Shown piece by piece: positions 6,021 to 62,217 of a stretch of DNA of 64,000 bases. How positions within the stretch are numbered: position 1 is the stretch's first letter; the number at the start of each line of letters is the position of its first letter. The notes under the pieces were generated by a model. It was not told the origin of the DNA and searched no databases. It saw nothing but the letters and a program-made list of their open reading frames with translations. The DNA lies in contig NZ_CP114200.1 in the NCBI RefSeq assembly GCF_029392895.1, forward strand, positions 7,260,501 to 7,324,500, in the 5' to 3' direction. The position numbers and the translations under genes are program-made. Source of the stretch: Streptomyces sp. 71268. GTDB taxonomy: Bacteria; Actinomycetota; Actinomycetes; Streptomycetales; Streptomycetaceae.

Positions 6021-7616
6021 TCAACTCGTCAGTACGTCGAGCGACACCAGGCGGTCGCCCCTGAAGCACAGCCGGTACGCGTCGCCCGACCGGTCGTCGA
6101 ACGGGTCGGCCGTCACCGCGTAGAACTCGCACGTGCTGGGGCCGCCCTTCGGCGGCGCGGCGGAGGGCCGGTGCACCGTCTGCTGGTCCGGCAGCACCCG
6201 CTCGACCTGGCGACGATCCTGCCCCACCCGCAGCCGGGCGTAGTCGGCCGGGTCCAGGACGGCGCGCGAGGTGGTCACCGCGTTCCACACGATGAGCACG
6301 GCGCTCAGTACGGCGCCCGTGACCAGCGGCAGCATCAGCGCCGCCACCAGTGTGCGGCGCACCCGCCGGCGGGCCCGCTGGTGCTCGCGCGGCAGCGCGC
6401 CGGTGTCCGGGCCACCCGGCCCGCCCGGCTGACCGGCGCCGCCGGCAGGCCACTCCAGGGAGCCGGCCGCCGCCGGGTGGCGCTGCTCGGGGCGGGCGGG
6501 GGGCGTGTGCGGGATGCGGGCGGTGACCGCGAAGCCCGCCGCGTACGGGCCGCAGGCGAAGCTGCCGCCGGCCAGCCGCACCCGCTCGTCGAGACCGATG
6601 AGCCCCCGCCCACCCCCGGACACCACGAGCGGGGCGCCGGGGGCGGCCTCGACGGCGGCCGGGGCCCGCTCGCCCCGGCCCGGCGGCGGCCCGTTCTCGA
6701 CCCGTACCGCGAGCTCCTGGTCCCCGTAGCTGACCCGCACGGCCACCTCGGCGGCCGGCGCGTGCTTGGCGGCGTTGGTCAGCGCCTCCTGCACGACCCG
6801 GTACGCGGCCCGCTCCGCGACCGGCGATGGGTGCGCCGCGGCGGCGTCGCCGTCGACGCGCAGCCGCACCGCGAGGCCGGCCTGCGCCGCCTCCTCCACC
6901 AGGCGCTCAAGGGTGGCGGCGCGGGCCCGCTCCGGCGCGGCGTCCGACGCGTCGCGCAGCACGCCGACGACCTCGCCGAGCCGTTCGACGGCCGCCGCGG
7001 CGCGGGCCCTGATGTCACGGGCCGCCTCGCGGTGCCGCTCGTCCAGGTCGGGGCTGAGCTGGAGCGCGCCGGCCGACAGCGCGATCAGGGAGAGGTCGTG
7101 GCCGAGCACGTCGTGCATGTCCTGGGCGATCCGGGCGCGTTCGCGCAGCCGGGCCTGCTCCGCGACGAGCCGCTGCTCGCGTTCGAGCTGCCCGGCCCGC
7201 TGCCAGCCGGCCCGCACCAGCTCCTGGTACTGCCGCCAGAACCGCCCCGAGAACCAGGGGAGCATCGCGGCGACCACCACTACCGCCACGAAGATGCTCG
7301 ACAGCTCGAGCCACGCGGGCACCACGGTGATCGCCACCAGGCCGGCGGCCAACAGCGCGACGAGCACCAACGCCGTGGGCAGCGTCCTGCCCGGCCGCCG
7401 CCCGGCCAGGAACGCGGCGACGGCGGTGGGCAGCGCCCACCACAGGCTGACCACGCTGAGCCCCGCCGTCACCGTCGCCGAGGCCGTCAGCAGGTGCCCG
7501 GGGTCCACCCCGCGTGCCAGCGCCCGTGCCACCGCGCCCGCGTCACCTCGCGCCGCCCTCGGCGGAGTCCCGCCACGGTCGCGCCCGCCGTCGATCGTCG
7601 TGCTTTCCACGCCCAC
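6021..7616 (-). CDS. HisKA_3 sensor histidine kinase with C-terminal transmembrane and extra domain
   Basis: 531 residues from GTG 7616; an in-frame start at 7718 would add 34 residues that look non-coding. N-terminal hydrophobic segments (about 30-105), HisKA_3 dimerisation domain with phospho-acceptor His168 (DMHDVLGHD), HATPase at about 275-400 with N box VQEALTNAAKHA and GGGRGLIGLDERV. Unusually the protein goes on: a Pro/Gly/Arg linker, one more transmembrane helix (about 425-448) and a 75-residue tail with two cysteines containing YARLRVGQDRRQVERVLP, reminiscent of the BamE/SmpA-type fold. That tail would lie outside the membrane and could sense or bind something; this is inference. Partner of the response regulator directly downstream. 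Confidence 0.9.
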   Translation of the reverse strand: MGVESTTIDGGRDRGGTPPRAARGDAGAVARALARGVDPGHLLTASATVTAGLSVVSLWWALPTAVAAFLAGRRPGRTLPTALVLVALLAAGLVAITVVPAWLELSSIFVAVVVVAAMLPWFSGRFWRQYQELVRAGWQRAGQLEREQRLVAEQARLRERARIAQDMHDVLGHDLSLIALSAGALQLSPDLDERHREAARDIRARAAAAVERLGEVVGVLRDASDAAPERARAATLERLVEEAAQAGLAVRLRVDGDAAAAHPSPVAERAAYRVVQEALTNAAKHAPAAEVAVRVSYGDQELAVRVENGPPPGRGERAPAAVEAAPGAPLVVSGGGRGLIGLDERVRLAGGSFACGPYAAGFAVTARIPHTPPARPEQRHPAAAGSLEWPAGGAGQPGGPGGPDTGALPREHQRARRRVRRTLVAALMLPLVTGAVLSAVLIVWNAVTTSRAVLDPADYARLRVGQDRRQVERVLPDQQTVHRPSAAPPKGGPSTCEFYAVTADPFDDRSGDAYRLCFRGDRLVSLDVLTS

Positions 7617-7674
7617 GACCCTACGAAGGCCAGGCCACGGCCCGACACTGCCGAAAGTCCAATCCCGCCCCGGC

Positions 7675-7727
7675 CACCCGTGGGCCAGGGCACCCGTGGG
7701 CCCGTAGGCCCCAGCCACCCGTGGGCC
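7675..7727. repeat. Three direct copies of CACCCGTGGGCC
   Basis: Identical 12-mers at 7675-7686, 7691-7702 and 7716-7727, in the short gap upstream of the two-component operon. Each has the near-palindromic core CCCGTGGG. They may be regulator sites for the kinase operon or part of the terminator of the gene upstream. Confidence 0.6.
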
Positions 7728-7755
7728 CGGGCCGCGCCGCGCCGGGCCGGGGTTC

Positions 7756-8961
7756 CTACGCCCCGGGGGTGGCGAAGTCCAGGGTGCGCCAGGGGCTGCC
7801 GGGCGTGTCGAGCAGGATGCGGTGCGGGGCGAGGGCCGATGCGTACATCGGCCCGAACGCCTCCTCGTCGAACCGCAGCACGCGGCCGAGCACGTAGCCG
7901 GCGGAGAAGTCCGACCAGGACGTGTAGTGCCGGCGACACAGCGAGCCGGCCCGGATCACGGCGGCCTCGACCTCCGCGCGGTCCGCGTACCGGGCGCCGA
8001 GCCCCCAGCGCGCGACGCTCACCGCGCGCCCGAAGTCGTACCCCGTGGCCGAGGCGACGTGTCCGTCGGGCGGCAGCAGTCCGTCGGCGCGAAACCGCGC
8101 CTCGTAGCGCAGGATGCGCTGGATGAGTTCCCGCGCCTCCACCAACTCGGACTCGGTGGCGCCCCGCTCGTACAGCGTCTCGGCCGCCGCCCGCTGCCAG
8201 AGTCGCGGATCGACGGGCCTGCCGGGTGCGCCGCGGGCGATGCCGCGCCGCACCCGCAGCACGAACTCGGGCTGCGGCGGGCTGTTGCGGCCCCGGAGGA
8301 GGAAGTCGAGCTGTCGGCGCCACTGGGCGCGGCTGGACGCGCCCCATGCCTCGCGCAGGATCCTGGTGTCGGCGCGGTAGTCCGCGTAGACGTCGGTGAG
8401 GTCGTTCCACAGCGCGCGCCGGTGCACGGACAGGTGCGCCCCGCAGGCGAGTCCCATGGCCAGCCGCCCGCGCAGCGGCCCGGTGTACTTGGTCAGCAGC
8501 GCCCCGGCCGCCGCCTCTCCCGCCGCCTCGCGGCTCGGCGTCTGGTCCCGCAGCGCGAGCCAGCGCCGCCGCTTGCGCCGGGCGCCGGGGAAGAACGCCT
8601 CGGTCGGCGTCCCCGGGTTGACCACCATGCCGCGCAGCTTCTCGCCCCACCACACGTACGGCGCCAGCGGCAGCGCGATGGCGCAGGCGACCTCCCCGGC
8701 GCGCGGCGTGGTGAGTTCACCACGGGTGTAGACGGCGAGGTAGCGCGGCCCGTGGGCCGCCGTGTGCGGGACCCAGGCGATGAGTTGGTCGTCGTCGACG
8801 AGTTGTCTGGGGGCGTACGCGAAGGTCGGCGCGGCGAACAGCACCCGCAGGTAGCCGTCCCAGTCCCGGCGTGCCTTCGCCTCGAACAGTGCTCTCTCGA
8901 CGTCGGTCGGCGGCACCCACGCGGGCACCTGTGCGGCAGCTCCGATGATCGGCGTCCCCAT
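7756..8961 (-). CDS. SseB N-terminal / DUF1266 domain protein
   Basis: 401 residues starting MGTPIIGAAAQ at ATG 8961. The N-terminal 150 residues resemble the SseB N-terminal domain (VERALFEAKARRDWDGYLRVLFAAPTFAYA would span its start); the C-terminal 220 residues match the DUF1266 type, with the typical WGASSRAQWRRQLDFLL, YDFGRAVSVARWGL and SWSDFSAGYVLGR stretches. No signal peptide or membrane helix. DUF1266 proteins are frequent in Streptomyces and of unknown role; the SseB part suggests a protein-protein contact module. An upstream extension to 9162 is in frame but has compositional features of non-coding DNA. Confidence 0.85.
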   Translation of the reverse strand: MGTPIIGAAAQVPAWVPPTDVERALFEAKARRDWDGYLRVLFAAPTFAYAPRQLVDDDQLIAWVPHTAAHGPRYLAVYTRGELTTPRAGEVACAIALPLAPYVWWGEKLRGMVVNPGTPTEAFFPGARRKRRRWLALRDQTPSREAAGEAAAGALLTKYTGPLRGRLAMGLACGAHLSVHRRALWNDLTDVYADYRADTRILREAWGASSRAQWRRQLDFLLRGRNSPPQPEFVLRVRRGIARGAPGRPVDPRLWQRAAAETLYERGATESELVEARELIQRILRYEARFRADGLLPPDGHVASATGYDFGRAVSVARWGLGARYADRAEVEAAVIRAGSLCRRHYTSWSDFSAGYVLGRVLRFDEEAFGPMYASALAPHRILLDTPGSPWRTLDFATPGA

Positions 8962-9575
8962 GGCAGTCAGTATTCCCCGCGGGGGTGCCCCGCCATGGGC
9001 GCCAGCCGAATCCGATACCGGCGCGCGGTGCGCGGTCGGCGGATACGCGCCACCGTGCGCCGGGCCGCACGAGCCCGCGCCGCGCCGGAGCGCGGCCAGG
9101 CGGGGGACGGGGCACGGCTCGTCAGCCCGGCGCCGGGGTGAGGGCGCTGCCGTGCCGCACACGACGGGTGTCTCGGCGCGAGGCCCGGCCGCCGAAACCC
9201 CGTCCCCGGGCAGCTAACGCCGTGGGCCAGGAAATAGGGGTTCAGGGAGAGATGTAGGGGTCGGACGGGGTGAGCGACTAGGGGGTGTTCGCACCGTGCG
9301 GTGTGCCATGGTCGCCTCCACCCGGCGGATACGGGGGGTTCGGCGCGAGGAAGGCCAGGTGGGGGTGGGTGCGCCGGGTGATGGGGCGCCGGCGGGGTGA
9401 GCGGGGGAGGGACGGGGACGCGAGCCGTCGGGCCGGAGTCGGACGGTCCGCTGTGCAACGGCTGGATATCGATTGTGTCCCCGAGCCTCGACGGACCCCG
9501 TCCGACGGTCTGTGAAACCGCAACGGCCTGCTAGGTTTCCCGGGCAATTGATCAGGGCATGACGGGGGACCTACC
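8962..9575. other. 614-bp gene-poor region upstream of lipoprotein gene
   Basis: No frame here resembles a known protein. The right half holds probable promoter elements for the lipoprotein gene, including a spaced inverted repeat GAAACC (9514-9519) / GGTTTC (9534-9539) about 40-60 bases before its start. The stretch 9240-9430 is unusually G-rich on the + strand. Confidence 0.5.
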
Positions 9576-10103
9576 GTGCGAAACAAGACAAAGATCGCCG
9601 CCGCAGCCGCTGTCGCGGCACTGGCGCTCACGCTGACCGGTTGTGGCGACGACGGCGACGACGGCGGGTCGTTGTTCGGCAAGCCCAACAAGGGCGGGAA
9701 CCAGGCCATCGGCGGCGGTGAGGGCACCGGCGGCGACGAGATCAAGATCCCGGGCCCGGACTCGACCGGGCTGACCGGTGGTTCGAGCTCGACGGGCACC
9801 TCGGGCGGCTCCGGCTCGACCGGCGGCTCGGACGCCAGCAGCGCTCAGGGCCTGTGGTACACGACGGAGCGGACCGACTCCGGGCAGGTGGGCATCCTCA
9901 GCGTCTCCGGCAGCGCGTTCGTCATGCGCATGGGCACCATGACGTGCTCGGGCACCTCCGACGACCAGATGAACGTCAACGCCACCTGCCAGGGCGACAC
10001 GATGACCGGCAAGGCGGCGCTCAGTGAGGGCGGTCAGAAGCTGACGATCACCTGGAGCGACAGCGGCACCGACGAGTTCTCGCGGCAGATGCCCACCTCG
10101 TAG
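9576..10103 (+). CDS. Secreted lipoprotein, function unknown
   Basis: 175 residues with a lipoprotein signal peptide: basic start, Ala/Leu-rich core and lipobox LTGC at 20-23. An acidic and then Gly/Ser/Thr-rich linker (24-85, with GGSSSTGTSGGSGSTGGS) is followed by a compact 80-residue domain with two cysteines (MTCSG, ATCQG) that may form a disulfide. GTG start with GGGGGA upstream. The layout suggests a small folded domain on a flexible cell-surface tether. No homologue is recognised by eye. A strong hairpin follows 78 bases downstream, so it is probably a single-gene unit. Confidence 0.88.
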   Translation: MRNKTKIAAAAAVAALALTLTGCGDDGDDGGSLFGKPNKGGNQAIGGGEGTGGDEIKIPGPDSTGLTGGSSSTGTSGGSGSTGGSDASSAQGLWYTTERTDSGQVGILSVSGSAFVMRMGTMTCSGTSDDQMNVNATCQGDTMTGKAALSEGGQKLTITWSDSGTDEFSRQMPTS

Positions 10104-10180
10104 CCCGCGGCCCCGACGGCGTACGCACAGCGCGCGGTACGCCTCGGCGCGCGGTACGCCCTCACACAGCACAGCACAGC

Positions 10181-10231
10181 ACACGAGCACGCGGCCACGG
10201 TCCCGTACGGGTTCCGTGGCCGCGCGCTCGT
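10181..10231 (+). terminator. Long hairpin terminator after lipoprotein gene
   Basis: Arms CACGAGCACGCGGCCACGG (10181-10199) and CCGTGGCCGCGCGCTCGTG (10213-10231) pair at 18 of 19 positions around a 13-base loop. It is preceded by a short run of CACAG repeats. It may also serve the convergent small gene at 10296-10556. Confidence 0.8.
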
Positions 10232-10295
10232 GCGTGGTGGCGCCGTCGGTGGGGCGACGGGCGGCCGCCGTGACCGAGGTGGCCGGGCGGGCCGG

Positions 10296-10556
10296 CTACT
10301 CGGCGACGTACGTGGTGCGGGTCCACCGGAACACCCGCAGGGCGCGCTCGCCGTGGGCGACGGTCTCCGCGGTCGGCGCGAAGTGCGCGTAGTGGTTCCC
10401 GCGCGGCAGCTTGAGCATGGACCCGGGGTCGCGCACGTACCGGATGCGCTCGTGGTCGGGGAGGTCCTCCGCGGGGCCGCCACGGAGGATGATATTGGCC
10501 TCGGCGGGCGCGGTCTGGCGGGGCAGGACGTCTTCGGTCGCGAGTTCGTTGGTCAC
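10296..10556 (-). CDS. Small conserved actinobacterial protein (DUF5988-like)
   Basis: 86 residues, soluble, with the pattern NIILRGGP-x8-ERIRYV, GNHYAHFAPTAETVAHG and a C-terminal FRWTRTTYVAE. From memory this matches the small family DUF5988, found in actinomycetes and of unknown function. ATG start. A CRP-like site and a CCCCTAA/TTAGGGG spaced inverted repeat (10667-10673 and 10711-10717) lie in its 200-base upstream region. Confidence 0.75.
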   Translation of the reverse strand: MTNELATEDVLPRQTAPAEANIILRGGPAEDLPDHERIRYVRDPGSMLKLPRGNHYAHFAPTAETVAHGERALRVFRWTRTTYVAE

Positions 10557-10724
10557 GAGGGAAAGCTCCTCCGGTGAGCGGCGCGGTGGAGGCGGGTACG
10601 CGATCTCCAGCGAGACGACGGGGCCGCCTCTCCCGCAGTTCAGCAGCAGCCCGGCGCCCCAAGTAACCCCTAAATCCGATTCGTCGGGGTGGCGGGTGTT
10701 TCTGGGGGCGTTAGGGGCTTGGCA

Positions 10725-10738
10725 GTGACCTGCGTCAC
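10725..10738. promoter_or_regulatory. CRP-like site GTGACCTGCGTCAC
   Basis: Fits GTGA-N6-TCAC and also the Streptomyces Crp pattern GTG-N6-GNCAC as I recall it. It sits 170 bases upstream of the small gene starting at 10556 and just past the 3' end of the ABC ATPase gene, so the small gene is the likely target. Confidence 0.45.
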
Positions 10739-10757
10739 GCGCAGTGTGGGGCGCCGG

Positions 10758-12467
10758 CTACGCCACCGAGGCCGGTCCGGTGGCGGGGAGGCGGCCGGAC
10801 AGAAGGGCCCGGGTGACGGCGTGCTCCGGCGCGCGGAACACCCGTTCCGTGGGCCCCGCCTCGACCGTGCGCCCCGCGTCGAGCACCAGCACCGTGTCGG
10901 TCCGGTCGCCGATCAGTCGCAGGTCGTGGCTGATCAGGACGAGCGCGAGGCCGTGTCGCTCGCGCAGGGCGACCAGCAGGTCCATGATCGCCGTCGCCGT
11001 CTCCCCGTCCAGCGCCGACGTCACCTCGTCGCAGACGAGCACGTCGGGACGGGCCGCGAGGGCCCGGGCGATGGACACCCGCTGGCGCTGGCCGCCGGAC
11101 AGCTCGTGCGGGTAGCGGTCGGCGAAGTCGGCGGGCAGCGCGACCTGTTCGAGCAGCTCGGCCACGCGTGCGCGGGCGTCGGCGCCGCTCGTGCGGTGGT
11201 GCAGCCGCAGCGGGCGGGCGATGGCGGCGCCGGCCGTGACGCTCGGGTTGAGGGCGCCCAGCGGGTCCTGCGGGACGAGTTGCATCCGGCGCCGCTGGTC
11301 GCGGGAGCGCCCGTGCACCGAGGCCGCCAGCGGCGTGTCCCGCAATGCGACGGTGCCCGACGACGGCTTGTGCAGCCCGACCACGGCGCGCGCCAGGGTC
11401 GTCTTGCCCGAGCCCGAGACGCCGACGATGCCGAGGGACCCGCCGGCCGGCAGCGCGAGGCCGACGCCGCTCAGCACGGTGCGCCGCGCGCGCCGCGGAC
11501 CCACCACCGCGCCGAGGTCCCGCACCGTCAGGAGCGCCGTGGCCGGGACGGGCGGAACGGTGGTGGCCAGGGTGGCGGCCGTGGTGGTGGCAGGGGGCGG
11601 CGCGGTGGTCCCGGCCGGCGCGCCCGCGCTCGTGGCGGGTCGTCGCGCCGGGAGCGCGGTACCTGTGGCGTACGGGGCGGCCGTGCCCGACGGGCGGGCC
11701 GCCGGGCGCAGTTCGACCACCTCGTCGGCGAGCCGGGACACCAGGTCGGCGTCGTGGCACGACAGCGCGATGGCGAGCCGGTGTTCGGTGGCCAGGTGCC
11801 GCAACAGGTCGCCGACCTCGTCGCGCAGCGCGGGGTGCAGGCCGGCCGTCGGCTCGTCGAGGAGCAGCACGACCGGCTCCCTGGCCAGCGCCCTGGCCAG
11901 GGCGACGCGCCGCTGCTGGCCACCGGAGAGCCCGCCCGGGCGGCGGTCGGCCAGGCCCTCGTCCACCGGCAGCCGGACCTCGGCCAGCAACCGCTCCACC
12001 GTGTCGGGCTCGGGCCGGACCGCCGTCTCGCGGAGCAGCGAGCGCACCCGCATCCGGGGGTTGAGCCGGGACCCGGGGTCCTGGCCGACGTAGGCGACGT
12101 GGTGCCGGCGCAGCGCCCGCAACTCGCGCTCGGCCAACCGCAGCACCGGGCGGCCGAGGACCTCGACCTCGCCGCCGGCACACTCCGCCCCGGGCGGCAG
12201 CGCGCCGCTGACGGCCCGCAGCAACGTGGTCTTGCCGGCCCCGGACGGTCCGGTGAGCGCGACCACCTGGCCGGGCCGTACGGTCAACGAGCCCGCGGCG
12301 AGCAACGGGTGGCGGCCCATGGTGCTGACCACCGTGAGGTCGGTGACCCGTACGGCCGGCTCGGCGGCGTCGGCCGAGTCGGCGGCCGACCGCGCGGCCG
12401 GTGGTGCGACCGGTGGTGCGGGGTGCCGCGGGGACTTCTTCGACGTCCAGCGCGTTCGGTGGGTCAC
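10758..12467 (-). CDS. Fused double ATPase of a peptide/metal-type ABC importer (DppD-DppF like)
   Basis: 569 residues with two complete nucleotide-binding domains. Domain 1 (about 30-280): GPSGAGKTT Walker A, LSGGQQRR signature, VLLLDEPTAGL Walker B. Domain 2 (about 320-569): GVSGSGKTT, LSGGQRQR, VLVCDEVTSAL. An Ala/Pro/Thr-rich linker joins them. In most systems DppD and DppF are separate; here one chain supplies both sites. It powers the two permeases encoded upstream. The GTG start overlaps the permease stop by four bases (GTGA), so translation is coupled. Last gene of the four-gene operon that starts at 15953 under an iron box. Confidence 0.93.
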   Translation of the reverse strand: MTHRTRWTSKKSPRHPAPPVAPPAARSAADSADAAEPAVRVTDLTVVSTMGRHPLLAAGSLTVRPGQVVALTGPSGAGKTTLLRAVSGALPPGAECAGGEVEVLGRPVLRLAERELRALRRHHVAYVGQDPGSRLNPRMRVRSLLRETAVRPEPDTVERLLAEVRLPVDEGLADRRPGGLSGGQQRRVALARALAREPVVLLLDEPTAGLHPALRDEVGDLLRHLATEHRLAIALSCHDADLVSRLADEVVELRPAARPSGTAAPYATGTALPARRPATSAGAPAGTTAPPPATTTAATLATTVPPVPATALLTVRDLGAVVGPRRARRTVLSGVGLALPAGGSLGIVGVSGSGKTTLARAVVGLHKPSSGTVALRDTPLAASVHGRSRDQRRRMQLVPQDPLGALNPSVTAGAAIARPLRLHHRTSGADARARVAELLEQVALPADFADRYPHELSGGQRQRVSIARALAARPDVLVCDEVTSALDGETATAIMDLLVALRERHGLALVLISHDLRLIGDRTDTVLVLDAGRTVEAGPTERVFRAPEHAVTRALLSGRLPATGPASVA

Positions 12468-13357
12468 AGCGCGGTCACCGCCTTCCGGCCGGCCTGCGGG
12501 ACGAGCGCGACGGCCGCCAGGTTGACGCTCATGGCCAGCAGGCCGATGGCGATGCTGGGGGCCACCACGGCCCAGGGATTGAGCAGGACGCCGGCCGAGT
12601 TCTCCCGGATCATCAACGCCCAGTCGGCGGTCGGCGGTTGCGGGCCGACCTGGAGGAAGCCCGCGGTGGCGACGAGGTAGACGGCGGCGACGAAACGCAG
12701 CCCGAACAGCGCGAGCAGGGTGGCCCGCAGGTTCGGCAACACCTCGCGCACCACCAGGTGCCACAGCCCCTCGCCGCCGGCCGTCGCCGCCTCCACGTAC
12801 CCCGAGGCCGCGATGGGCGCCGCGGCGCCCGCCGTCAGCCGGATCGCGTACGGCACGCCCAGCACCACGGCGGCCGTGACCACCGCGAGCCGGCCGCCGT
12901 CCGGCCAGGACAGCGAGATCAGCAGGATGCCGAGCACGGCGGGCAGCAGCATCAGCACGTCGGCGGCGCGCTCCACGAAGCGGCCGACGGCGGGGCGCAG
13001 CGCGCTGACCGCGCCGAGCACCGCGGCGATGCCGGTGACCAGGAGGGCCACGAGCAGCGAGGTGCCGATGAGTTGCCGACCGCCGGCGAGCAGGCGGCTG
13101 AGCACGTCGCGGCCGAGCTGGTCGCCGCCCAGCGCCGCGTCGCCGCCGGGTTCCGCGTACGGCGCGGCGACCGGCGTGTCCACGGCGTGCGGGGCCAGCC
13201 AGGGGCCGGCCACCGCCAGCGCGACGAGCAGCAGTGCGGGCGCCGTGCGCAGCGCCACGCCCCACGGGCCCGGGCCCGACCGGTTGGCCGGGGCGGGCCG
13301 GTGGGCCGGGCCTTCGTGGTGGGCGGAGACTCTCACGCGTGCCCTCCGGAGCTTCAT
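12464..13357 (-). CDS. ABC importer permease (DppC-like)
   Basis: 297 residues, about six transmembrane helices. An N-terminal helix and a periplasmic loop with the DppC-type LGGDQLGRDVLSRLLAGGR precede the binding-protein-dependent permease domain; the EAA-type loop is visible around EAATAGGEGLWHLVVREVLPN. ATG start overlaps the preceding permease stop (ATGA), and its own stop overlaps the ATPase start. Pairs with the DppB-like permease to form the membrane channel. Confidence 0.93.
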   Translation of the reverse strand: MKLRRARVRVSAHHEGPAHRPAPANRSGPGPWGVALRTAPALLLVALAVAGPWLAPHAVDTPVAAPYAEPGGDAALGGDQLGRDVLSRLLAGGRQLIGTSLLVALLVTGIAAVLGAVSALRPAVGRFVERAADVLMLLPAVLGILLISLSWPDGGRLAVVTAAVVLGVPYAIRLTAGAAAPIAASGYVEAATAGGEGLWHLVVREVLPNLRATLLALFGLRFVAAVYLVATAGFLQVGPQPPTADWALMIRENSAGVLLNPWAVVAPSIAIGLLAMSVNLAAVALVPQAGRKAVTAL

Positions 13358-56273: not shown

Positions 56274-56623
56274 CGGACTACCTCCAGGTGTGCGCGCGGC
56301 TCCCGGCGCCACCACGAGTGGTGGGAGCGGGACCCGTCGATGGTTGCGGCGAGCCCGCCGGAGCGGGAGCGCCGGGGCGCGAAGCCGGGTTCGGCGGGGG
56401 TCCGCGTCCCGTCCGGCGCGTGGCGCGGCGCGGGGGCCCTGGGACCGGCGGCGTCCCTGGCCCGGTCCGAGCCGGCGCCGAGCAGGCCCGCCCGACCGGA
56501 CGCGGGACCGCGGGAGTCGGGAAGGGCGGCGGCCAACGCGCCGCCACGGCCTCGCGGGCCGAGCGGCGGGCGGACGGAGGGGAAGCCGGGGGAGCCGGCT
56601 CCGCTGGTGACGAGGATTCTCAT
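56270..56623 (-). pseudogene. Possible remnant of dTDP-glucose 4,6-dehydratase (rmlB-like)
   Basis: A 117-codon frame starts MRILVTSGAGSPGFPSVRPP, close to the RmlB start pattern MRILVTGGAGFIGSHFVR, continues as Pro/Gly/Arg-rich sequence without the catalytic YxxxK or TDEVYG motifs, and ends SWWRREPRAHLEVVR, faintly like the WWEPL end of RmlB. Its stop overlaps the rmlD-like ATG (ATGA), as in a coupled operon. This suggests an rmlB gene reduced by internal deletion and drift. The likeness is short and could be chance. Confidence 0.35.
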
Positions 56624-57196
56624 GCGGGTTCCGGGGGTCGGGGGCGTGGGGACGGGGAGGGCGGGCGACGGGCGGTGTCGCGGCACGCGGAGGAGGAGGG
56701 GCGGGGGTGTGCGGATCGCCTGCCGGCGGTTCGGCGTTGGCGGACCGTGGCTCCGTGGCCTCAGAAGTGGTGGCCGGCCCCGGCCGCCTTGGGGCCGGGT
56801 GGCGGGGGCAGGGGCGCGCGACAGGGTGGGACGTGGACGCGGGCTCGGTACAGGGGCCCGGTGGCGCCGAGTTGGGGCGTACGGCCTGGGGGTGTTGTTG
56901 AGCGGTGAGGCACGTGGTTAGCTTAGGCTTACCTAAGTAAGTGCTCGCCCTGTTGGGTGTGTGACCTCACCCACAACCGTCCTTCTATGTGCCCCTCCCG
57001 CGTACGACGTGCCCTCCGCCCCGCGCCCCTGCCAGCGCGGGGCGACGGCAAGGCGACGAGGGGTGCGGAAACGCAGGTTGCCGATGTGTGTCCGGTTCGT
57101 CGGTCGCTCCCGCCACGGCTCGTCGCTCCCGACGGCCCCGCCGTCCCGGGCGTATCGCGCCGTACGCGAGTCGATGGCCAGCGGTGGGAGCGGCCG
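56624..57196. other. 573-bp region with iron box and long leader
   Basis: Left of 56910 it is G-rich on the + strand with no convincing frame. It holds the iron box at 56918-56936 and then 260 bases before the esterase start. A 79-residue frame at 56961-57200 ends in an ATGA overlap with the esterase start, but its Arg/Pro/Ser-rich product matches nothing known. Confidence 0.5.
56918..56936. promoter_or_regulatory. Iron box (DmdR/DtxR-type operator)
   Basis: TTAGCTTAGGCTTACCTAA matches TTAGGTTAGGCTCACCTAA at 17 of 19 positions, with CTAAG following. It is the best iron box in the window. It should put the transcript of the esterase at 57197 under iron repression, with a 5' leader of about 230-260 bases. 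Confidence 0.88.
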
Positions 57197-58063
57197 ATGA
57201 GCACGCGTCCGACTCCCGTGGCCGCGCCGCTCGGCGGCGTGCCCGCCGCCCGTCGCGCCACCCACCGCCCCCCAACGGGCGCCCGGTCGCCGGGCCCTGA
57301 CGCCCCGCCCTGGGCCGAGGCGCCCGACGACGTACACCCCGGCAGCCTGCGACGGCACCGGCTCGGCAACCGCGCGCTCGCCGCCGAGCGCGACGTGTGG
57401 GTGTACGAGCCGCCGGGGCCGCTGCCCGCCGAGACCGACGCGGTGGTGCTGCTCGACGGCGACATGTGGTTCGGCCAACTGGGCTTCGAGTCCGTACTCG
57501 ACCGGCTCATCGCCGTCGGTCTGCTGCCCCCGCTGATCGTGCTCGCGCCGAACTGGGACCGGGCGGACGGGGCCACGCGGGCCGGGGAGTTGGGCGGCCA
57601 CGACGCCCAGGTCGCCTTTCTGGCGACGGAGTTGCTGCCGTGGGCCGCCGCCCGCTGGCCGGTCACCGACGATCCGGCCCGCACCGTCGTCGCCGGACGG
57701 GGGCTCGGCGGCGTGAGCGCGCTGTACGCCGGGTACGCCGCGCCCATGCGGTTCGGCAACGTGCTGGCCCAGTCCGCCGCGCTGTCCTGGCACCCGGTGG
57801 GCGAGCCCGAGAGCGGCGCGGACCCGGTGCCCTGGATCACGCGCCGGTACGCCGACGGCGCCCCGCGCGAACTGCGCCTCCACCTCGGCGTGGGGCTGGG
57901 CGAGGGGCGACTGCTGGAACTCACCCGTGGCCTGCGGACGGCGCTGCGGGCCCGCGACTACCCGGTGACCCACACCGAGTTCAACGGCGGTCACGACTAC
58001 GCCTGCTGGCGGGACGCCCTCGTCGACGGGCTGATCACCCTGCTCGGCGCGCACCCTCGCTGA
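57197..58063 (+). CDS. Fes/IroE-like siderophore esterase lacking the nucleophile serine
   Basis: 288 residues from ATG 57197 (GGGAG six bases upstream). Alpha/beta-hydrolase of the enterochelin esterase family: VWVYEPPGPLP, VVLLDGDMWFGQLGFESVL, PLIVLAPNWDRADGATRAGE (in part), TVVAGRGLGGVSALYAG, RFGNVLAQSAALSW and catalytic His in NGGHDYACWRDAL. In active Fes proteins the nucleophile motif is AGQSxGG; here it reads AGRGLGG, so Ser is Gly (codon GGG). It may be inactive as an esterase, a binding protein, or use another residue. Downstream of an iron box, consistent with siderophore processing. No signal peptide. Confidence 0.88.
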   Translation: MSTRPTPVAAPLGGVPAARRATHRPPTGARSPGPDAPPWAEAPDDVHPGSLRRHRLGNRALAAERDVWVYEPPGPLPAETDAVVLLDGDMWFGQLGFESVLDRLIAVGLLPPLIVLAPNWDRADGATRAGELGGHDAQVAFLATELLPWAAARWPVTDDPARTVVAGRGLGGVSALYAGYAAPMRFGNVLAQSAALSWHPVGEPESGADPVPWITRRYADGAPRELRLHLGVGLGEGRLLELTRGLRTALRARDYPVTHTEFNGGHDYACWRDALVDGLITLLGAHPR

Positions 58064-61308: not shown

Positions 61309-61953
61309 TCATTCCGGCCAGGGTGAGTTCTCGATGACGGTGACGAAGTCGCCGCGCCGGAAACCGGGCACGAAGTGTTCGAGCACGTCCGCCTTCACGT
61401 TGCCGAACGTGGTCTCCGGCTTGGGCGCGATGCCCTCGGTGAACGCCGCCAGGATGCGCCGCTTGAAGTCCGGGCGCGGGTGCAGCGCGGTGATCTCGGC
61501 CCGGTCGTCCGCGCTGACGCGCTCGTAGTCGATGCCGAGCACGTCGTACTCCACTCCGGCGGTGACCAGCGCGACCTCCGGTTCCATGAACTCCGGCACG
61601 CCGGGCGTGGTGTGCAGGGCGATGGCCGTCCACACCCGGCGCACGGCGTCCTCGGGCACCGCGTGGGAGCGCAGGAACCTCGCGGCCTCCTCCGCCCCGT
61701 CCACCTCGAACCGGCGCCCGCTGGTACGGAACTCCTCGCCCAAGCCCAGGTCGTGGAACATGGCGCCGACGTAGAGCAGCTCGGGGTCGCACTCCAGGCC
61801 GCGTTCGCGCCCCAGCAGGCTGCCGAACAGGAACACCCGGCGGGAGTGGTGGTAGATCAGGTCGGAGGTCACCGCGCGCACCAGGTCGGTGGCCTCCTTG
61901 GCGAGTGCGCTGTCGGGCACGGTGATCCCCGCGACGTGCGACGCGTCGGGCAT
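61309..61953 (-). CDS. HD-domain phosphohydrolase-like protein
   Basis: 214 residues from ATG 61953 (GGAGACC upstream). HD metal site: YHHSRRVFLFGSLLG, AMFHDLGLGEEFR and IALHTTPGV, the pattern of the HD proteins annotated as cyanamide-hydratase-like or metal-dependent phosphohydrolases. A conserved C-terminal FGNVKADVLEHFVPGFR follows. Substrate unknown. Between two ABC-F genes; transcribed with the right-hand one on the minus strand but 264 bases away. Confidence 0.93.
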   Translation of the reverse strand: MPDASHVAGITVPDSALAKEATDLVRAVTSDLIYHHSRRVFLFGSLLGRERGLECDPELLYVGAMFHDLGLGEEFRTSGRRFEVDGAEEAARFLRSHAVPEDAVRRVWTAIALHTTPGVPEFMEPEVALVTAGVEYDVLGIDYERVSADDRAEITALHPRPDFKRRILAAFTEGIAPKPETTFGNVKADVLEHFVPGFRRGDFVTVIENSPWPE

Positions 61954-62217
61954 GGCTGGTCTCCTCGTCCTCGGTCCTGTCGTCATCCGGCTGACCGTGA
62001 CCGGTGACCGGTCGCCGGCTCGCTCCCGGCCCCGACCGTCCCGGTACGGGCGCCCGTCGCGCGCCCCTCGGCCAGCCCCGGGCCTCGGCTCACGCCACCC
62101 GACGGCCGGCGACCGGCAGTGGGCGGGGCGCGCCGACACCAGTGAACCAGCGCGCCCCGCCCGCGTCACCGCGCGGCCCGCCCCCGCGCACACGCGCCGC
62201 CCGGCCGCCGGCGCCCG

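Follow-up and report, generated by a model that had tools for sequence, protein, structure and literature searches.

In a 64,000-nucleotide stretch of Streptomyces sp. 71268 DNA (contig NZ_CP114200.1; the whole stretch is here called the window), a gene downstream of a putative iron box encodes a relative of the enterochelin esterase Fes in which glycine stands where the nucleophile serine belongs. The protein may be an iron-regulated pseudo-esterase, binding ferric catecholate and leaving it uncut; this is a tentative reading for which belief and doubt are close to balanced. A lost nucleophile, a kept pocket, a kept iron box, purifying selection, a Ser-bearing paralogue and a catechol-producing host together make a non-cutting holder of ferric catecholate the simplest account. 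If a conserved, iron-regulated, non-hydrolysing version of the enzyme is indeed maintained, cutting is not the only way in which cells deal with ferric siderophores, and binding is another.

A Fes-type protein without its nucleophile

The reading frame ends at 58063, and its likely start is the ATG at 57197, behind a GGGAG; this codon is preferred to the far-upstream GTG at 56957, given as the start in the list of open reading frames, because orthologues begin at the same Met. A domain search finds PF00756 in the protein (E 3e-26), and among proteins of solved structure its best matches are the Fes enzymes of Salmonella and Shigella (entries 2b20, 3c87 and 3mga, E 1e-25 to 1e-23). The AGQSFGG elbow of Fes aligns with AGRGLGG, and the nucleophile Ser position is therefore Gly169. 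The GGHD motif aligns as well, with the catalytic His266 matching His375 of Fes (400-aa numbering). The original prediction, made from the DNA letters alone, had described just such a Fes-like protein with a Ser to Gly change in its elbow, and that description holds. The predicted structure of the esterase domain retains the Fes fold. Of the features that define a Fes-type protein, the PF00756 fold and the His are thus present; the elbow Ser and the N-terminal PF11806 domain are missing, and the score against the Fes equivalog NF007758 (160.7 bits) lies below its cut-off of 222. No signal sequence is obvious by eye.

The window protein falls within a clade of eight rows, all with Gly (8/8), in trees of 177 proteins that were built without the nucleophile and His columns; these trees are quick searches with Shimodaira-Hasegawa-like approximate likelihood ratio (SH-aLRT) support only, which for this clade is 100 and 99. 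The six nearest relatives among the matches listed (P0002-P0007) all read AGQGLGG, so that the replacement of a catalytic residue extends through a conserved clade. A homologue alignment of this kind had been proposed at the outset as the check on whether Gly marks a subfamily, and it does. All eight reading frames are open. The Gly codon is GGG in the window and GGA, GGG and GGC in orthologues L003, L004 and L005; seven Ser-bearing relatives use AGC (six) or AGT (one). A sequencing error, named beforehand as a possible refutation, is thus rejected as vanishingly improbable, given that separately sequenced genomes share the Gly through different codons. PF11806 is present in P0002-P0006 and absent in P0007. 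Compared with L003, the window copy has lost the domain through an internal deletion that keeps the frame; the S. zagrosensis copy apparently lost it in a separate event.

Features of the window gene and related loci (window positions, except in the last line)
Feature	Position or locus	Strand	Remarks
Iron box (putative DmdR1-type operator)	56918..56936	+	17/19 match
Leader, 260 nt	56937..57196	+	Partly conserved; strong predicted RNA fold
Fes-type gene (candidate pseudo-esterase)	57197..58063	+	288 aa plus stop; open reading frame, domain and structure matches
Remaining N-terminal tail, about residues 1-36	57197..57304	+	PF11806, which follows it in full-length orthologues, deleted in frame
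Esterase domain, PF00756 region	57308..58060	+	Fes fold in model
Elbow AGRGLGG	57692..57712	+	Gly169 codon GGG at 57701-57703 replaces nucleophile Ser
His266 codon CAC	57992..57994	+	Retained
Exporter, glycosyltransferase and Fes loci	L006, L010, L013, L008, L012, L014, L017, L019, L021, L022, L026, L044, L052, L053		

Repeated loss of the serine

Of 412 relatives the best 120 were tabulated, and 29 of them, counting the window protein, have no nucleophile Ser (24 Gly, 2 Arg, 2 Glu, 1 Asp). When these are combined with the best 80 of 392 loci, after removal of proteins already covered by a locus, 40 of the 177 rows are Ser-less (35 Gly, 2 Arg, 2 Glu, 1 Asp), a share that describes the best matches and is no census. 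The tree demands 13 changes at the Ser position, at least eight of them forced by well supported branches (14 and seven, respectively, with further columns removed), and part of these may be regains of Ser. A single origin of the loss in these actinomycete Fes proteins is rejected by the approximately unbiased (AU) test (p 0.00037) on 57 of the 177 rows, 24 Ser-less and 33 with Ser, which were chosen after the tree had been viewed.

Repeated loss of the same residue suggests a second, non-cutting job. The broader proposal, that Streptomyces has time and again turned a spare esterase into an iron-induced ferric-catecholate binder (carrier, buffer or sensor) beside an active esterase, each time through loss of the nucleophile, is more doubtful than the reading of the window protein itself. 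Having occurred in parallel, the losses serve as natural replicates, in which pocket residues required for binding can be told apart from those required for catalysis. They also carry a warning for annotation, as many Ser-less relatives among those listed bear the name enterochelin esterase.

Two other Ser-less groups were observed. A second clade with fixed Gly comprises L066, P0112-P0117 and P0119 (Actinacidiphila and kin); no other Fes and no EntC match was found in the L066 genome. In the Streptomyces griseus group, Ser-less copies (L047, L051, L061, L063, L064 and L068, four of which also have Arg in place of the His) keep iron boxes of 17-18/19 and stand alone beside cytochrome c assembly genes, between a class III aminotransferase/phosphatase pair and redoxin, CcdA-, ResB- and CcsB-like genes.

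Which pocket residues erode

Among the 137 rows with Ser, S195 is retained in 136 and W197 and H266 in all 137. In Ser-less rows these fall to 18 of 40, 23 of 37 (three gaps) and 33 of 40, and in plain counts the co-loss with Ser has p values of 4e-16, 4e-11 and 2e-5, respectively. D87, W91, R128, D267 and W271 are each present in 40 of 40 Ser-less rows, and position 236 is E or D in all 40. The minimum number of changes on the tree is ten for S195, four each for W197 and H266, and zero or one for the five retained residues. In the structure model S195 and W197 follow strand 188-194, which would put them at the end of the sheet where the elbow and the His loop lie in this fold. Erosion of S195, W197 and His266 with retention of the other residues indicates that decay is confined to parts of the catalytic centre and spares the rest of the pocket.

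These counts bear on the possibility that the protein is still an esterase, in which the trilactone would be cleaved without Ser169, through His266, the acid and either a further residue or an iron-bound hydroxide. The frequent retention of His266, the invariable acid at 236 and the fold kept in the model would suit such an enzyme, but the His is also lost in seven of the 40 Ser-less rows, and S195 and W197, almost invariant where Ser is present, erode where it is absent. Catalysis by another mechanism is unlikely, because the clade shares no substitute near the elbow and some rows have no His. In a check for a shifted nucleophile, no clade-specific Ser, Cys or Thr was found near the elbow, S99 being the sole clade-specific invariant Ser, and a shifted nucleophile is accordingly rejected. 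The suggestion of a "new mechanism" in the original prediction is thereby its weakest option. Its other part, a catalytically dead esterase that serves as a siderophore-binding protein, is partly supported on the available sequences, as a Gly fixed in the subfamily and an esterase domain under selection (see below) fit a non-catalytic binding role.

Iron box and leader

The iron box, TTAGCTTAGGCTTACCTAA, matches 17 of 19 positions of TTAGGTTAGGCTAACCTAA, which we take to be the consensus. The claim that it is the best box in the window is borne out: it is the sole site with three or fewer mismatches in 64 kb, and none arose in 100 shuffles. The identical 19 bases stand ahead of orthologues L003, L004 and L005, and across the Gly clade the box begins 264-285 bases ahead of the start codon. 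An upstream box so conserved in orthologues would fit membership of a DmdR1-type regulon. Boxes are found at 16 of 18 Ser-less loci; the two without are L045, on a cut contig, and L066.

The leader between box and gene contains two blocks about 85% identical to S. zagrosensis. Of 200 shuffled versions, 199 fold less well than it does (z -4.2). In the predicted fold, the GGGAG of the ribosome-binding site pairs with an invariant upstream CTCCC. No known RNA family (Rfam) was matched in 56316-57250 up to E 1, and a search of the leader against plasmids gave no match. Directly past the box, at 56951-56977, lies an imperfect inverted repeat, GTTGGGTGTG/CACCCACAAC, with a core, TGTGTGACCTCACCCACAA, shared without change by L003, L004 and L005.

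A relic of a siderophore locus?

At Ser-bearing loci L006, L010 and L013 the esterase lies beside a 1216-aa double ATP-binding cassette (ABC) exporter, an EryCIII-like glycosyltransferase and a siderophore-binding protein, presumably iroC-, iroB- and fepB-like. This set lies between rmlD or a GMD-like gene and, in L010, DAO and ABC-F genes. rmlD, DAO and ABC-F genes also flank the window gene, which occupies the same chromosomal place as these Ser-bearing relatives. The exporter and glycosyltransferase families co-occur in 14 actinomycete loci (listed in the table), whose gene content suggests a salmochelin-type (glucosylated catechol) system beyond the enterobacteria. In the Gly clade, the esterase and its iron box alone are left at that place. 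Genes here were called by a simple script that can miss neighbours; with that reservation, siderophore genes flank 50 of 63 Ser loci vs 2 of 18 Ser-less loci (Fisher p 2e-7, plain counts). No convincing remnants of the lost genes were found in the intergenic DNA of the window (best upstream E 0.55, no match downstream).

Such a setting raises the main rival account: the gene would be a slowly decaying relic, the last gene of a lost IroB/IroC-like locus, redundant beside a Ser-bearing Fes and, as selection on it relaxes, shedding its catalytic parts and turning into a pseudogene. We consider this quite possible, though doubtful. Slow decay after loss of the siderophore genes would explain the missing N-terminal domain and the variety of unrelated residues (G, R, E, D) that replace Ser, and the Ser paralogue, the vanished siderophore neighbours and the parallel losses all leave room for it. 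The iron box at nearly all Ser-less loci, the unbroken core of the pocket and the open frames of the clade speak against decay.

Selection was estimated as the pairwise ratio of nonsynonymous to synonymous substitution rates (dN/dS) by the Nei-Gojobori method (NG86) only, with bootstrap limits. In the esterase domain the values inside the Gly clade are 0.47, 0.47, 0.21, 0.37, 0.21 and 0.19, with a highest upper limit of 0.92; five Ser pairs give 0.15-0.33. By this measure the esterase domain has remained under purifying selection after loss of the Ser, as expected of a pseudoenzyme and not of a relic. In S. philanthi (L003), four of five mappable neighbours are cut or frameshifted (rmlD, DAO, the first ABC-F gene and the gene at 61309-62110), but no such damage affects the second ABC-F gene or the esterase, which alone is weak evidence. 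The broken neighbours lie within 6084-12500 of that locus, as in an eroding genome.

Several observations weigh against a maintained binding protein. The N-terminal domain appears neutral or gone in the Gly clade: its dN/dS is 0.96 [0.54-1.83] in the one clade pair with DNA that has the domain (0.17-0.47 in five Ser pairs), and it has been lost from the window and S. zagrosensis copies. The gene is 87% identical to that of L004 (dN/dS 0.45), and eight neighbours are 94.7-98.4% identical (0.10-0.30), a faster pace that favours the relic; Ser-bearing fes likewise outpaces its neighbours, with 86% identity between L013 and L006 vs 92-95% for three siderophore neighbours. Clade row P0006 has no catalytic His, and the window copy has changes of its own at otherwise conserved sites (Q168R). 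The co-loss of S195, W197 and His266 with Ser is not significant on seven independent pairs (median p 0.5, 1 and 1). Nor is the link between context and Ser on six independent pairs (about 3.5 one way and none the other, median p 0.125), which also weakens the relic; Ser-less L040 and L043 still have siderophore genes next to them, and orphans make up 13 of the 63 Ser loci. Boxes of at least 15/19 occur at 62 of 82 loci, none being found at the other 20, and at some loci the box precedes another gene, as far as 2 kb upstream. Leader covariation is slight (3 of 43 pairs), and the covariation term is not favourable. Ser is present in 121 of 121 enterobacterial proteins used as a control (E. coli Fes plus the 120 relatives listed for it), but the sample is narrow (Escherichia, Citrobacter and near kin).

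A catechol producer with a second Fes

The window genome contains an enterobactin-type cluster at about C1:6.996-7.009 Mb, with two FecCD permeases, a binding protein, EntA, EntC, EntE and a nonribosomal peptide synthetase read as two stretches (C-A and A-PCP-TE), together with iron boxes of 16 and 17/19. The simple gene-calling script did not detect EntB there. The siderophore-binding gene (G000:C1:6998149-6999084) has one TAG inside the matched stretch, yet a 383-aa frame is called there. A second Fes (C1:7034804-7035604) has the Ser, in AGQSLGG, and no box better than 12/19 was found in the surrounding 19 kb. No IroB orthologue was found in the genome (best E 3e-8). Elsewhere in it, a double ABC exporter (G000:C1:5707920-5712257; L091 11858-16294) is about 50% identical to the IroC-like one and has no siderophore genes around it.

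At least one further Fes homologue is present in 14 of 17 genomes with a Ser-less copy, and the 13 second copies read all have Ser, a set to which neither G006's second copy nor two additional ones in G004 belong; in three genomes the Ser-less copy is alone, one of them on a cut contig. None of 14 Ser copies (that of the window genome included) has a box of at least 14/19 in the surrounding 3.6-3.8 kb. EntC of at least 68% identity was found in eight of ten Ser-less genomes tested, again including that of the window; G009 has a 47% match at best and G016 none.

For the non-cutting ferric-catecholate holder, the following course can be proposed. In a catechol-siderophore producer, a Fes/IroD-type paralogue would have had its nucleophile replaced (Ser to Gly) and, along the window lineage, its N-terminal domain deleted as well; its esterase fold and remaining pocket would have been kept. 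Under iron starvation DmdR1 would leave the box and the protein would be made. It may then bind ferric catecholate (enterobactin-like or in linear pieces) in the cytoplasm without cutting it, and might serve as a carrier, a buffer or a partner of the Ser-bearing Fes.

Comparison with known systems

The literature matches listed include an account of the S. varsoviensis catechol cluster, whose EnsG is taken as an esterase by similarity (PMC10188961), one of the DmdR1 regulon of S. coelicolor, where the part available does not use the word esterase (PMC12161575), and one of the Fes pathway of E. coli (PMC8001512). No title or abstract describing Ser-less Fes proteins was found among these matches, nor was a class of intracellular, non-cutting ferric-catecholate-binding proteins.

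The closest known system is Fes (PF11806 plus PF00756; NF007758), which the window protein resembles in sequence, fold, His, core pocket residues and putative iron control, and from which it differs in the missing Ser and N-terminal domain and the NF007758 score below cut-off. Hydrolysis by Fes is the textbook route for freeing iron from enterobactin. The periplasmic trilactone esterases IroE and PfeE likewise have no N-terminal domain, but they are exported, and the window protein is nearer to Fes; both presumably carry the nucleophile Ser, which for PfeE is Ser157 according to structure entry titles. Binding in place of catalysis has a precedent in another esterase lineage, the neuroligin-type relatives of cholinesterase, animal adhesion proteins that keep the hydrolase fold with the nucleophile replaced. 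Siderophore esterases without a nucleophile exist as PfeE S157A and EstB S148A, which are laboratory mutants and not natural proteins; an entry title records PfeE S157A in a crystal together with a tris-catechol compound, so binding may survive the absence of the Ser.
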